NCBI RefSeq assembly: GCF_963675165.1
Contig: NC_087378.1
Coordinates: forward strand, 4,645,205 to 4,709,204
Length of the DNA stretch: 64,000 nt
Reading direction: 5' to 3'
Source of the DNA: Halichondria panicea
Taxonomy: Eukaryota > Porifera > Demospongiae > Suberitida > Halichondriidae
Made by a program: the position numbers and the translations under genes. Each line of letters starts with the position of its first letter. Position 1 is the stretch's first letter. Shown piece by piece: positions 1-41,116 of this stretch. The notes beneath the pieces were generated by a model, which saw nothing but the letters and a program-made list of their open reading frames with translations, was not told the origin of the DNA and did no database searches.

Positions 1-573
1 CAGAAATATCGCTTCTCAATTCTTTTGCGAAAGTTTGTGTTTCGGCATCTGTGAATTGCTTGCACCGGATGCGGCTTGCGCACCTAAAAATATAACTAAA
101 CAAATTTTTGGTGGACTGGTCTGATTCTAGTTTGGCAATAAACCCTGACGATACGGCAAACACTACTCTATGGAAACGATGTAACAAAGACAGGACCGGC
201 TTGATCATCTTAACTGTTGCATTCTTTGCCTCGTTTAAGTCGATCAACAAGACATGATTCGGCAAAAAATCTTTTGTTTCGATTGAAAACTCCACCACTT
301 CGCTGCCAAGAACTCCTGTTACAGGCTTGTACTTGTCACTGATTTCCAATTGCTTTAACAGCCAAAAGAGCGTGGTTGTTTTTCCACATCCGGGACCACC
401 GAGCAGGCACAAAATGTTATGACCCTTTCTGTCCGGATTTGTAACGAATTCGTATGCTTTCTTCATTTCTGCTGTGACAATAATTGTTGACTTAATCCCG
501 AGCAGGTTTAGGGCTGGTGAATGTTTAAAAGGCACGTCATTGTCTTCATCCTCCCCCAGTTTAACAACACGGT
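1..573 (-). CDS. P-loop NTPase, internal/3' exon (partial)
   Basis: Open reading frame on the minus strand, running off the window edge, with no stop in about 190 codons. It starts after a good acceptor (poly-T then GCAG) at 574-577. It encodes an acidic stretch (GEDEDND), then a Walker A motif LGGPGCGKTT, about 50 residues from the exon start, and a Walker B-like segment HVLLIDLNEA some 50 residues later. This is an ATP/GTP-binding module. The family is not clear: a STAND/NACHT-like or transposon-associated AAA ATPase are both possible. No helicase or sensor motifs are visible before the sequence ends. Whether it is a host gene or part of a mobile element cannot be told from this exon. Confidence 0.55.
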
Positions 574-2740
574 CTGCAAAAAAGAAAAGACTGTGATAAC
601 AACAATCAGGGTTAGGTATGGGTATACATTACGCTGGCTTAGATGCCGCTTAGTTTTTTTTATGTACACTAGCCAGAGGGAAGCTTTAACGTTGCTTGAG
701 GCTTGTAGAAACTCTTGGTTGCAGAGTCTTCTTTGTGTTAATTCTTAATTAAAATTCTTATTTAAAACTGCATCGTAAACGATTAACAAGCAATATGGGA
801 TTAATTACTCGTGCTATTAATCCCATATTACACGAGTAACCATACTATTAATTATACTAATAGCGCTGATTGTAAAAATTAAGCATACATTCTTGCTTGT
901 GCCTTTTGGGGGGGGGGGGGTCACCAGTGTGCTTCAAATTCATCTGATCACTATTGAAAAAAAAGCATCATGGGTTAGATCATACTTTGCCTAAGCCAAT
1001 TTTCCTATGACCGCAAACACATGCAGGTGGGCGGTATCATAAGGAATAATGACGTCATAATGTTCTTTTTGTTAAAAATTTACAGAAGCAGCAAAAGCCA
1101 AGAACTTGGAACTACATGTCTATGGCATTTATGAGCACAGTTGATCTATAAGGCTTCTGTTCTACAGAGCCATATCAAATGCTTACAGTGTAGTGCTAAT
1201 GATCTTACAGTTCAGTTTATTCCCTAATAAGGTTATTGGAGAAACCTTAGTGGTAGCCAATCAAACGAGCTGGTAAGCAGCTATGAAGGAGGCGATTAGT
1301 TGGAAGAATGGAGTTGAAACGTGCTAATTCTGAGGTATGGTAGAGTGTGAGCCTTCGGTTTTGCCTAGCCTCGAGGCCTCATTAGTAGCATGGGAGAGAG
1401 AAAACGTCTGGTGTCTCTGGGTATACTTTTCTGGAATGAATGTTACAAATGCTAAGCAGCCAAGCCAACTACTAGTAGCTTTCAGGGCACCTAGTAGTCC
1501 AATTAATACTTGGCGTTGGCAAGGCATTGTTTAGGAAACTCACCCTATAAGTACCAGTGCAACCAGCAGCATACCATGGTTGGAATACATTTCCTCCTTA
1601 CGCTTATTCACAAAACCAGACAAGCCAGCTATTGGCAGTGGCTATACAGCCAAGATTATTATTATGACAACGCATTGTTGACTGTCTTTTTAGGTAGGTT
1701 TCATCTAAACGACTAGGCAAAGGGGTTGTTAGCCATGGCATGGGGGGCAGAGTTATTTGACCTCCCTTGGCCTTGTGAACTGGCTTTTCCTTGTACAATT
1801 AGAGGCTCTGCGTTACTTAATACAGTAAATCTTAACACAGTATATCTAACCTTCGGGAAGCCATTGAATAGACACTGAAGAGGTACAAAGGCTGGATAGT
1901 TCAGAGGACTAGGGAACTGGAGAACCAAGCAAAGTTAAGTAAACAATTTATACAAACGGAACAAGAACGGTTTATTATTTCCTACGTTGGAAGTTTGTGT
2001 GAACTATACAGTAGTAACTATACACAGCGATAAATTAAACAATTGAAGGCTTGCACACTAGTCTGAAGACAGAAGAGGCTTTATGGTTGAGTTGTCTTAG
2101 CAAGCAGCACTTCCGTTCGTTGTGACCGTCATTGTTTTACTGAGCATATACGATGTTATCCAGAGTCCCCAGTTTCTGGAGAGCGCTAACAGTACCAGGC
2201 CCATCTTCAGTGCGGCCTGGGATCGAGGCTAGGTGGGCATGAGCTCTGAGGTCACTTGATGGCTGAGATTTTGCCAAATATTACACATAAATAATTATTG
2301 CGCAAGTTTCAGCAATTACACAAGACAACAAAAGCAACAAAAGTCCATGGACAAGTTTAACTGTTCTAAAAAGGCTATTCCAAGAAGAAACCTAGTTAGC
2401 TGGCTCTACTCCGAGAACGAAACGTTGTTTTGCAAATCTACAAATTGAGATCCAAGAAAACGTGACTATAAGCGCGCCTTAGCTTGCACTTCATTATCAT
2501 TGAGATAGTCTACAAAGACTGCACACCACATGGACTATGGCTTTGGGCCAAAAGGCATTAACTATACAGCAAAATTAACTATACACCGCAAAATCCATAA
2601 AAGTAACCCGACGCATCTAAAATTTTGTAACTGACATTTTATAATCACGACACAAACGAACCTGCTTTGTTGAGAGAGATGGTAGAGCTGGCGGATAGGT
2701 AGAGTTCAGCTGTTGGAGACGGGTGCAAATTTCTGGTCGA
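574..2740. other. Non-coding, repeat-rich stretch
   Basis: No convincing exon seen; the ORFs on both strands are short and overlapping. It holds a hairpin at 793-828 (listed separately), a G homopolymer near 909-920, and a GCCTGGGATCGAGGCTAG motif near 2216 that recurs at about 31371. Confidence 0.5.
793..828. repeat. 13-bp inverted repeat, part of a dispersed repeat
   Basis: Arms ATATGGGATTAAT (793-805) and ATTAATCCCATAT (816-828) are perfect complements around a 10-base loop. The same sequence context, followed by AGTAACCATACTATT, recurs just after the stop codon of the transposase-protease gene (about 14963-15001). It is therefore a dispersed repeat, perhaps a transposon end. It has no obvious coding role. 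Confidence 0.6.
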
Positions 2741-2750
2741 GTCCAAAGCT

Positions 2751-2839
2751 GGTTGGGTGAGACGGTAGAGCTGGTTGAGTTGAGACGATACACCTAGTTG
2801 GGTGAGACGGTAGAGCTGGTTGAGTTGAGACGATATAGC
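2751..2839. repeat. Tandem duplication, two 45-bp units
   Basis: Two adjacent units with period 45, built on GTTGGGTGAGACGGTAGAG and TGAGTTGAGACGATA. A related, diverged half unit lies just upstream near 2677-2710. No gene is associated. Confidence 0.7.
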
Positions 2840-3508
2840 TGTTAGTGTGTGCAAAAACGATCCCACGAAGAAGACAGTAGGCAGACTGGTGTAGCTGCTT
2901 TTTATACTCCTAAATGTGCTCTAGTGCTCTAGTGCTCTGGTCACAAATCTGCAATCCGATTGGTGGGCAGTTCTATTTTTAGGTGTCTCTGGATTTTTGG
3001 TCATTACGTCAGTGCATGACTGTATCAGGAGAGGTTGGACGCGCGTCATTATCATCATAAGACAACTTTCTCTAAGTCCAATGGCTTCTTCTCAGAGTTC
3101 TTTTTTCAGTCCTTGCTCAATGCCAGGGGTATTGGTGGTTTTCTCAAAGGGAAGAAGAGTCATGGACTATATTGTCTATTGGCAAACCGTTCATGTACAA
3201 CCTACCCAATTTTGAGATCATGGCAGTCGAGTTGAAGTGGAGGTAGCAATTAACAATGGTTAAAATGAGATGGAGTCTGAGACGGAGTGTTTTGATGCGT
3301 TTGTTCGCTGTGATGCAGGGCTGTGTCGAAGCTACCCATCTACTCTCGTTGATCTCGATTGAACCCAGCACGATTATAGCCTCGCTTCGCTTCGCTCGGA
3401 ATTATGTGATCAATTATTATGCAGCCTGCCATCTTTGCTGCCTGTGTAAGCACAACGGTTTGTTTGCCATATGTAGTGGATTGATTTTGAAACGATGATT
3501 TTGAATCA
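2840..3508. other. No gene seen
   Basis: Short overlapping ORFs on both strands, with no splice-supported coding or recognisable domain. Confidence 0.4.
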
Positions 3509-36250: not shown

Positions 36251-37655
36251 ACCGATTCAGGCATCAGCGCTTTCTTTGAGTTATGATCTGAATTTTTTTG
36301 TGCATGAACTACAATAATTATCCTCAGCGGAAGTCTTAGACACTAGTAGGTACAGAGTACCTAGTTGTTTTGTTTTGAGGTAGTAAATATGTTAGGCATA
36401 GAACTTTTGAGTTTATGCTAGTTAATGAGCATGTACTGTAATAGTGTAGTTTTCATCTACATAATAGTTATAGGCTGAGTCCAAGGGCCCGAGGCTGTAA
36501 AGAAGACTCTGTTTCATCAAACCTCAAGCAACTTTGCTCTGGCTAAAAAAACTCACACTGAAGGCAGTTTGTCATGTTTCCGTCTCGTTATAGTTAGCTC
36601 TGCAGGTAGCTGCAAGAGTGAGATTAAAGCGGCACTGCAGAACACAAAGACTTTTAAAAATTAGTTTTCTGCTTACAGATGTTGCTAAGCATTCCATGTA
36701 TGTATCATGTTAAATGCATGTAGTGAACATATAATGGACCTCCGTAGAAGACCTCTGCAAGTAACCAATCAGATTGCACCATTTGTGACAAGCATCTCTT
36801 CGTTGCTAAGGCAGCCCTTCTTGCACAAATTTCTGCAATGATCATCCTGTTGTTATTTGCTACATCCAAAGCTGCCTACTGCACAATTGTTTCTGTTATC
36901 AAATTCAAAACAAGATGGCGTTTTTACGCACAAAACATATTTGCTTCTGTTGTACTGTTGTACTGTGCTGGCTCAAGGTATCTGTCTTATATACTATAAT
37001 AATACATCCAGTTTATCTTAAATACATGTGACCAGGCTCTGGGAAAACAGACCAATTGAGACTACAGTGCATAATCTCATAAAATTTTTCTTTGCTTATA
37101 GTTATATAACTACAGTCTTTTTACTACCTCTCTGCAAACATGCACCTTAATTTGGCAATCTTTGAGTGGGCGTTTCTCAATACCAACGCGCATAACTCAG
37201 GCATGGAACGAGGTATGTGCGTAGGCAATTCTTTGCTCTATCATCTGGTATATAGATCGCAAAAATTATAGCTTGCGCCAATTGGTCTGTTTTCCCGAGC
37301 CTGTTACATATACCTCCTGTACAAGAAAATCCCTCTCTTTGATAATACTTGCTCTGAAATATTGATTTTCTCAGAAACAAAAAATTGTTATTCTTGTTTT
37401 AGTCTGCAGCTATAAGATGCAAGATGGATGCAAGATGATTGTCTAAGCGCCAGAAAAAAATAATTCCAACAACTTTTTTAGGACCTAAAAAATTATGCTG
37501 ATGCTGATGTAGCGGCTGGCGCTATAATTACATCAACTTTACAGTATCACTTCTGGTTTCTTTATGTCATTTTTGTGGCAGCTGCAGTTGAACGGACCTA
37601 GCTAAGGTGTCTGGCTGTAAAGCATTGACTAAACAGACTCAACAAGACAGAAAAT
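36251..37655. other. No intact gene; MITE and fossil ORF edge
   Basis: Holds the MITE at 37028-37307. The last 75 bases (37580-37655) are, on the minus strand, the continuation of the ORF at 40949-41116 interrupted by the transposon that starts at 37656. Confidence 0.5.
37028..37307. mobile_element. 280-bp MITE related to the DUF7869 element
   Basis: Ends CAGGCTCTGGGAAAACAGAC and, inverted, CAGGCTCGGGAAAACAGAC. The interior GAGGTATGTGC ... CTCTATCATCTGGTATATAGATCGCA closely resembles the right subterminal part of the 37656-40948 transposon (40830-40905). It may be a non-autonomous relative moved by the same transposase. Confidence 0.65.
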
Positions 37656-38008
37656 GTGATGCAATCTGAGAAAAGAGACCACTTCGCGGTAAAAGTCAAT
37701 TAGAGCTATAGGCGTATTCATGACTCATGGTGTTAATTGATTAATAACGTTTTAATAGCTTATATGTATCTACAGACCTTCTGCTACCTGTCTACGAAGT
37801 CTGAAGCTCTGAATCCATCTCTTTCCACCCGAGCGAGCCGTCAGAAAACTGTCACTATTGTTCACTTTTTATAAAAAAATTTTGCCACGTAAACGATTTT
37901 TCCGCCTACGCGACACGGAAATATCCGGTAGTATACGGGGGGATTTTCCCCTTGCGGTAGAATTTACATCCGTTACTTAGCTACTAAAATTATAATGCAC
38001 GTTCACGC

Positions 38009-40334
38009 ATGGTCTATTCTGCATTGATGGCGACACATACGAGTGCAAGGGAAGCTTCTAAAGCTATAAATGATCTACTGCACTACTCTCTCGAGGACCA
38101 GGATGCCTTGCTAGATGTCCTAGATGAGTATTTCACTTCTCCTGAAGACCTGGAAGAAGACAGTGATGCAATGGACACCACAGGTAAAATACACATCAAA
38201 ATAAATACAGTATACGCTAAAATAAGACAGCTTGACATGCAAAACACATACATAATTATAAATGCACAATAATACTACCTAACATAACTACACAGAGTGT
38301 GACATAGAGGATGAGAGAGAAGAATTTAACAGTGACGAAGAAACAGACGTGGACGACGAAATTGACATTTCTACAGATACGACAGTAACAGAGGCAATGT
38401 CCAAATTACAGCAGGTTTGTGATGTTGAGGTGGAACTCACTCGATCAGACGCTGAAGAGAAGAAGGAGGTACACGATTTTTGCCGAAAAGAGTGTGGGTG
38501 TAGTCTGTGGAAACAGAAGTGCTGCTCGCTCCAGTTTTCAGTTCACGAAGTCGAAGACGTTCGTTCCCAGTGCGCAAGCCTCTCCCACGACGAGCTGGAT
38601 ATGGTTCTTTTAGGACAAATCATGGCCACATCCAACAATAGAGACACGGTTGTTACAGCATCTGGGCATAAAAAGTCACCGCGACAGAAAGCGTACACCA
38701 GATATTTTCACCAGGGATTGATTGTTTGTGCCAAAATGTTCTTGTTTTTCCATGGTGTTAGTCGCACACGTATGAAGGCCCTGGCCCAAAGATACAAAGA
38801 AAATGGATTGACCCCAAGGATCCATGGTAACACCAAGCGTTCCCCGAAGTGGACACTTTCTCTCTCTTCAGCTGAATTCGTTGTTGGTTTTTTGGTCCAC
38901 TACACTCAACTCCACGGGCTTCTTTTACCAGGCCGTGTGCCTGGTTACAGTCGATCAGACCTGAAGCTGCTACCCTCTAGTGCGACCAAGCGTTCAATTT
39001 GGATCGAATATCATCAATCGGCCATCAATGACAGCAGTATTCACACAGTTGTGTACAGCACCTTCTGTCGGCTCTGGCGTACTCTCCTACCACAAGTTCT
39101 CATAATGAAGCCAATGTCCGATCTCTGTTGGCAGTGTCAGCAAAACAGCACGGCTATCATTCGTTCTGCCAACAGCCAGGAATCCGATAAAAGCTCAACT
39201 CTCAAGGCTGCTGAAGACCACCTAACGCACGTACAGTTGGAGCGATCGTACTATCGAGCGATTTGTGATGACTGTCGACAAGAAGTCCGAACATGCTTCA
39301 CAGAAAACGGCACCTTCTCACCACCACTGCCTCACTCGGGAATCCCTGCAAACACCAAGAGAATAAAAGTGCATTATTCATTTGATTATGCTCAGCAAGT
39401 ACATTACCCATGTGATCCTCTGCAGCCTGGGCCAATCTTTTTTTTGACACCTCGGAAGTGCTCAATTTTTGGTGTTCATTGCGAAGCCATCCCCCGTCAA
39501 GTAAACTTCCTTGGAGACGAGGCAGGAGATTGTGGCAAGGGAGCAAATACCGTCATCAGCCAGCTTCACTATTACTTCGAACACCATGGCCTAGGGGAGA
39601 CGGAGGTGTACCTGCACGCTGACAATTGTACGGGTCAAAACAAAAACAGCTGCATGATCCACTACCTTTGTTGGCGTTGTATGACAGGACGGCACACGAA
39701 GGCCACAATCTCGTTCATGGTTGTCGGCCACACCAAGTTTGCTCCAGATTGGTGCTTTGGTCTTTTGAAACAGCGGTACAGAAGAACGAGAATTGGCTGT
39801 CTCACAGATATTGCTACCGTTGTCAACCAGTCTGCAGTCTGCAATGTCTCCCAGCTCGTTATTAGAGAGGACGGGACAACAGTTGTGCCTGTGTTTGATT
39901 GGACCAGTTTTTTTGCTGTCCGGATGAAGAAACTGACTGGTATCAAAAAGTTTCACCACTTTTACTTCGATTCGGCAAAACCAGGCGAGGTCGTTGTGAA
40001 AGTGCGCTCCGATTCAGCCGAAACGAAATACGAGTTGCTGAAACAGCCTTGGACTCCTGATCCTCAAACACTTCCCGACAAAGTTCCACCAAGAGGGCTC
40101 TCAAGTGAACGTCAGTGGTACTTATACGAAAAAATCCGTCCGTTCTGTCCCTTTGAATCACAAGACGTAACTTGTCCCTTGCCTACCGCTCCAAGGCCAA
40201 CCAGTCGCCATGGAACTCCAGCTACAACACCTCCTCCCCCTGAGTCATCCCAGCCACCTGCAAAAAAACGGAGATGTGGTTTGTGCAGGCAGGAAGGACA
40301 TGTTCGAACTGTTTGCCCTCAAAGACAAGACTGA
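38009..40334 (+). CDS. DUF7869-type putative transposase
   Basis: Two exons, 38009-38183 and 38296-40334, joined in phase to give 737 residues. ATG at 38009 or 38027 may start it. The N-terminus is acidic (DEYFTSPEDLEEDSD). The core has RNase H-like candidate acids: Asp 422 in SFDYAQQ, Asp 501 in HADNCTGQNKN and Asp 543 in KFAPDWCFG. The HADNCTGQNKN and GHTKFAPD motifs are those I associate with DUF7869 proteins, which are multicopy in cnidarians and sponges and suspected to be transposon-derived. Several CxxC pairs (DLCWQCQQ; AICDDC) suggest metal binding, and a CCHC knuckle (CGLCRQEGHVRTVC) closes the protein. Its position alone between matched TIRs supports a transposase role. The assignment of the three acids is inference. 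Confidence 0.8.
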
Positions 40335-40916
40335 ATTATTTTTTATACTTATAATATACTTATTACACTATTGCATACTTCACATGAAATGTTGTGACTG
40401 TTACTCATTCAAGTTAAGCAAGTTAAGCAAGAAACACACTAAAGGCTAGCTAGATCTAGGGTGTAATTTAACTTACTTGAGTTAGAGAAGGTATCCTTAG
40501 CCCTGGAGCTATCTTGCTTCCAAACGGTGAGATGTGTGACTGCTGTGCCCTATTCTGTTGTAGTCATTAGCTCAAGAGCTTCAGGAGTAAGCGATGGAAG
40601 TAGTATACTTTATCTACAAGGCCCTAAAGCTTTCTTAGAAAAATAATTTTAATATCTACCACGTGTGTACTATTTTTTGCATTACGTAATGCATTACCTA
40701 ATGCATAACGCGGAAAGATTACTAGAATGCAATATTGCATTCGAAAATTTGTCAATGTTTAAGGGGCGTTTTCTCAATAACGTTATTTCAGAGCAGAGAG
40801 TTTCAAACGATCATAACTTCGTCATACTATGAGGTATGTGCACGCTAAGCAGAGCATTACGTAGGTAATTTTCTGCTCTATCAGCAGGTGTATAGATCGC
40901 AGATTTTTTTGATCAA
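40335..40916. other. 3' part of the DUF7869 transposon
   Basis: Non-coding from the stop codon to the right TIR. The subterminal segment 40780-40905 resembles the MITE at 37028-37307. A GCATTACGTAATGC palindrome lies near 40679. Confidence 0.5.
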
Positions 40917-40948
40917 GCGAAGTGGTCTCTTTTCTCAGATTGCATCAC

Positions 40949-41116
40949 AAATTTTCTTTGAATCTTACTGTATGGGCATAAGTTAATAATAAATATTGGA
41001 TTTCCAACGAATGTTCCACAATACGATTGCCTTCGGACATTAAAATTGTCGAGAGCTGCTTTAATAAATGGGCCATCCTCTTTCTTGAATCCTTTCATGA
41101 TGAGTTTGTTTGGCAT
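40949..41116 (-). pseudogene. Transposon-derived ORF fragment interrupted by the 3.3-kb element
   Basis: Minus-strand frame from 41116 encodes FKKEDGPFIKAALDNFNVRR, SYCGTFVGN and KIQRKF, then hits the TIR. Across the insertion the frame continues at 37655 with LSLFSQCFTARHL. The VRRQxYxGTFVGN motif recalls a multicopy protein of uncertain function in sponges and cnidarians. No intact copy is present. Confidence 0.45.

Follow-up and report, generated by a model that had tools for sequence, protein, structure and literature searches.

A 3,293-bp element located at positions 37656-40948 of the analysed window (a 64,000-nt stretch, C2:4645205-4709204, of the 131-Mb, 39-contig genome of Halichondria panicea) was found to comprise terminal inverted repeats (TIRs), AAAT flanks and a predicted gene for a DUF7869 protein. 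It is probably a complete cut-and-paste transposon of the Sola2 kind, likely to have been mobile recently, for which the DUF7869 protein would serve as the DDD transposase. All coordinates without a contig name refer to the window.

Extent of the element and its empty sites

The two ends of the element are fully complementary over 32 bp and each is adjoined by AAAT (Table 1). Both features had been reported in the first-pass annotation of this DNA, and its broader claim of a complete transposon of the DUF7869 family was likewise borne out by the defined ends, the 4-bp target and a Pfam match at E 4e-17. An inverted-repeat search reports 33 bp, since base pairing extends to the T/A at 37655/40949, which already belongs to the duplicated AAAT. 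The resulting alternative, a TIR of 33 bp and a 2-bp duplication (AA), was rejected and 32 bp with AAAT preferred, because 12 of the 16 other two-ended copies described below carry a matching AWWT tetramer in the 4-bp register.

The boundaries of the element are fixed by two paralogous empty sites. The flanks joined with a single AAAT gave four matches in a genome search, namely the window's own two flanks and the sites C12:3528060-3528108 (96 % identity) and C14:3313272-3313312 (90 %), both uninterrupted across the junction. The tetramers at these empty sites are ACAT and AAAC, not AAAT, and zero bases were gained or lost at the junction. A minus-strand ORF rejoined by removal of the element had earlier been put forward as independent proof of the boundaries. 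The ORF does exist but does not fix them. In the 1.2-kb joined sequence, 12 stretches stay open for 50 codons or more, and this one, of 73 codons, was therefore rejected as such a proof.

In two cases, the only sites that this observation covers, the empty target is palindromic beyond the tetramer: in the window, where 37649-37655 is joined to 40953-40957 (AGAAAATTTTCT), and at the ends of the related copy L045 (TACTGTATATACAGTA).

Table 1. Features of the element, with window coordinates and the basis of each assignment
Feature	Position	Strand	Basis
Left target site duplication, AAAT	37652..37655		Register backed by other copies and empty sites
Left TIR, 32 bp	37656..37687	+	Fully complementary to right TIR; genome pattern count
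Predicted exon 1 of transposase gene	38009..38183	+	Frame and GT-AG only; ATG at 38009, alternative ATG at 38027
Predicted 112-bp GT-AG intron	38184..38295	+	Coding match of a 98.6 % identical copy interrupted at this position, where the copy has a 12-bp insertion
Exon 2 including stop	38296..40334	+	Spliced product of 737 aa, DUF7869 (PF25273)
Asp 422 (HYSFDYAQQV), proposed first catalytic Asp	39384..39386	+	Alignment of copies; probable counterpart IIDGMDQ in the distant lineage
Asp 501 (LHADNCTGQNKN), proposed second catalytic Asp	39621..39623	+	Alignments of both lineages
Asp 543 (VVGHTKFAPDWCFG), proposed third catalytic Asp	39747..39749	+	Alignments of both lineages
CCHC zinc-knuckle-like motif C-x2-C-x4-H-x4-C (CGLCRQEGHVRTVC), near the C-terminus	40275..40316	+	Read off the translation
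Right TIR, 32 bp	40917..40948	-	Fully complementary to left TIR; genome pattern count
Right target site duplication, AAAT	40949..40952		Register backed by other copies and empty sites

The predicted gene and its product

The gene had been described as one unbroken frame of 737 aa. This length is obtained after predicted splicing, but the gene is not unbroken and consists of two stop-free exons. The longest single frame comprises 683 codons (38283-40334), and the only other frame of at least 120 codons inside the element, of 140 codons, is antisense to the DUF7869 gene. Alternative GT-AG pairs likewise preserve the frame, so that the 112-bp intron is a predicted choice, supported because the 98.6 % identical copy shows its gap at the same place.

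In a Pfam search the product matched DUF7869 (PF25273) with 62.8 bits against a curated cut-off of 26. The matched part is the putative catalytic half, and Pfam assigns no function to the profile. Pfam gave no match to any named transposase family, and NCBIfam returned 0 families. Searches of solved structures gave chance-level matches only, one each (E 0.061 and 0.95), and searches of viral contigs found no relative, one pattern search giving no match and another 35 pattern matches with 0 relatives among them. The zinc-knuckle-like motif, which also occurs in the related copies L042 and L045 and may bind DNA, had no Pfam match in the window protein.

Copies sharing the TIR of the window element

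The TIR pattern, with up to 3 mismatches allowed, was present at 35 places in the genome and the reversed control at 0. Two of these belong to the window element itself, one to a long copy on C1, and one (C17:3494297) was not cut out; the remaining 31 fell into 20 places that were cut out for inspection. Two recognisable ends were held by 16 of the 20, the other four (L022, L025, L027 and L029) having one. Perfect 4-bp duplications flank 12 of the 16 two-ended copies (L011-L021 and L023). All are of the form AWWT (6 ATAT, 4 AAAT, 2 ATTT) and adjoin GTGATG. In L024, L026, L028 and L030 no matching tetramer was seen.

These 12 short copies, which lack the gene, have lengths of 417-419 bp and a mean divergence of 1.5 % (maximum 2.2 %), and recent activity is probable. 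At their outer parts they match the ends of the window element with 74-81 % identity, and they are therefore relatives of it and not its simple deletion products. A related transposase probably mobilised these gene-less copies of ~419 bp in trans.

The long copy on C1 is 98.6 % identical to the window element over element positions 1-3285. ATAT flanks its intact end, ATATG precedes a 3' TIR from which 7 bases are missing, and the reading frame of the copy has one base deleted. It differs from the window copy by 13 substitutions in 1,070 aligned non-coding bases and by 8 in the coding sequence, of which 4 are silent and 4 non-silent.

Other TIR families with DUF7869 genes

A protein search of the genome yielded 90 matching stretches. 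Three long cousins with a DUF7869 gene, L042 (~6.0 kb), L043 (~4.1 kb) and L045 (~7.9 kb), have TIRs that start GTGACAGG, with ATAT at both ends. The cousin TIR pattern GTGACAGGGCCTAGGAAAAC (up to 2 mismatches) was present at 312 places in the genome, and the control at 0. From the matches listed, the first 20 pairs with a spacing below 1.7 kb were taken as a sample, the 7.9-kb pair of L045 being passed over as already examined. A perfect 4-bp duplication was seen in 15 of these 20 pairs and not in the other 5. Among the matches listed the 15 tetramers were 8 ATAT, 2 AAAT, 2 AATT, 1 ATTT, 1 AACT and 1 AGTT, 13 of them AWWT. No matching tetramer was found at L040 and L041, which lie inside a segmental duplication, and L044 yielded only an inverted repeat flanked by T-runs, with no clear element end.

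Introns follow SFDYAQQ and HGLG (HSLG in L042) in all five cousins examined (L041, L042, L043, L044 and L045). Neither is present in the window copy (39384-39620), in which the predicted first intron is kept, a pattern that would fit 3' intron loss via cDNA.

A DUF7869 profile search of the genome gave 57 stretches, some of them belonging to a second lineage, whose identity to the window protein across the domain is 22-26 %. The TIR of this distant lineage (up to 3 mismatches) was present at 24 places, with 0 in the control, and four copies with both ends, 8.6 to 11.2 kb apart, were recognised among the matches listed. Three of the four bear a 4-bp duplication (AAGA, ATAG and ATAT) if the element starts AACACATTCACTG, a register that was assigned, including the terminal AA, from the same flanks that show the duplications. 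AWWT is not universal in DUF7869 elements, as the distant lineage has AAGA and ATAG besides ATAT.

The ends and target lengths of other copies had been proposed as a check on the first reading. A length of 4 bp was recovered in the three TIR families (12/16, 15/20 and 3/4 copies), but the ends differ between families, being GTGATGCAATCTGAG, GTGACAGGGCCTAGG and AACACATTCACTG, alike within a family and unlike across DUF7869. The 4-bp duplication is common to the DUF7869 lineages examined, whereas the TIR sequence and the target preference differ.

Conserved aspartates

The candidate acidic triad Asp 422, Asp 501 and Asp 543 had been numbered correctly for the 737-aa product, with spacings of 78 and 41 residues, and proved to be conserved. 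D501 and D543 are invariant in all seven aligned sequences (five of the first lineage, two of the second) and, in a separate alignment, in six of six first-lineage sequences. They are among 18 columns invariant across both lineages, D501 lying in ADNC in the first lineage and LDNT in the second, and D543 in KFAPD and HEDID, respectively. D422 is kept in the first-lineage copies that cover the position, with the exception of L045, which has Glu. In both second-lineage copies inspected the motif IIDGMDQ lies upstream of the aligned part and is the probable counterpart of D422. The conservation thus holds in copies ~50-60 % identical as well as in the lineage that is 22-26 % identical. The PF25273 matches in both lineages start downstream of the first Asp. 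The profile itself seems to start past this residue and would then contain two of the three.

Judged from the alignments, the motif order would be compatible with a nuclease of the RNase H-like DDD type, but the helices that an RNase H fold should have were not evident in a crude Chou-Fasman profile.

Probable relationship to Sola2 and alternative explanations

The Sola superfamily, including the Sola2 transposons, was reportedly described by Bao et al. in 2009, and to our knowledge no other superfamily with AWWT targets has been described. Kolobok elements have the target TTAA. The same target is given for piggyBac in two sources (PMC5199201; PMC7351741); both groups resemble the window element in their cut-and-paste mode and 4-bp target duplication but differ from it in the target, AWWT in the window element, and a Pfam match to either is absent. 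For Sola2, PMC3627910 describes AT-rich 4-bp AWWT duplications (ATAT, AAAT, ATTT), TIRs and one large transposase of 888 aa. The same three tetramers occur in the present material, with AAAT in the window and AWWT duplications in the short copies and the cousin family, and perfect TIRs and one large putative transposase are found in the window element. Its TIR of 32 bp differs from the 12, 13 or 21 bp given there for amoeba Sola2 elements, and its protein of 737 aa from the 888 aa. For Sola elements in general, PMC10741241 gives sizes of mostly 2-9 kb, TIRs of 11-1124 bp, duplications of 4 bp and a transposase of the DDD type. The window element falls within this size range, and the DDD label would fit the three aspartates, proposed as catalytic, that are conserved in the DUF7869 copies with one Glu at the first position (L045). 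The probable membership in Sola2 is drawn from such described features (target site, TIRs, DDD); no Sola-named model was found among the Pfam and NCBIfam matches of the window protein.

In the reading preferred here, the DUF7869 protein would be an RNase H-like DDD nuclease in which Asp 422, 501 and 543 would hold two metal ions. Such a transposase would bind the TIRs, excise the element and insert it through cuts staggered by 4 bp at AWWT; filling of the gaps by the host would then produce the duplicated tetramer.

A chance occurrence of inverted repeats and AAAT around a host gene is hardly credible: nothing was found in its favour, and it is opposed by the 35 ends in the genome versus 0 in the control, the 12 further copies with duplications and the two empty sites. 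The DUF7869 protein might instead be a passenger of an element that another transposase moves via the TIRs. The ~419-bp copies are too small for such a gene and so must be mobilised in trans whichever explanation holds, but this one is very improbable given that the DUF7869 gene is the only long frame of the element (the 140-codon antisense frame being the only other one of at least 120 codons), that copies with the gene occur in all three TIR types, and that two of the proposed catalytic aspartates are among the 18 invariant columns.

Another view is that DUF7869 transposons form their own superfamily, and that convergence or a very remote common origin accounts for the AWWT targets and DDD chemistry found also in Sola2. 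The missing Pfam and NCBIfam matches to any named transposase family, the absence of DUF7869 from the literature searched and the TIR sequences that differ between lineages speak for it. Nevertheless it is considered unlikely, since the tetramers ATAT, AAAT and ATTT and the DDD label coincide with what is described for Sola2 (PMC3627910) and Sola (PMC10741241), and the missing matches say little if Pfam and NCBIfam contain no Sola model. It is rather improbable that DUF7869 is the transposase of a non-Sola2 superfamily with at least three TIR types, a 4-bp duplication of lineage-specific preference and, possibly, end-to-end circles. The suggestion in the first-pass annotation that this copy could define the superfamily is weakened because DDD, TIRs and 4-bp AWWT duplications coincide with features of Sola and Sola2, although the copy does provide ends, a target and a candidate triad.

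The element is probably a Sola2 member, and the evidence points to DUF7869 as a DDD transposase core; the domain gains a probable function, and the element does not represent a new kind. A domain so far listed as unknown would become a probable DDD transposase core for which residues, ends and a target can be named, and genome annotators could label DUF7869 genes as transposon genes. No statement of such a role was found in the literature searched, which was one paper collection queried by the domain name and the DNCxGQN motif. The link between DUF7869 and a transposase may merit publication even with Sola2 long known.

Copies of unusual structure

One copy of the distant lineage, L035 with L048 (C3, around 1893843-1893847), looks circularly permuted in comparison with the C8 copy L033 with L047. 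A single base separates its 3' end from the 5' end that follows (GAATGTGTT-C-AACACATTC), and both outer breakpoints map to one internal position of the C8 copy. An assembly fault could account for this, as could the insertion of a circle or a deletion within a tandem pair; circular Sola intermediates were not found in the literature searched.

In the window itself, a small stretch at 37041-37296 has 18-bp inverted arms; parts of it resemble the right end of the main element at 75-79 % similarity, and it is probably an old short relative.
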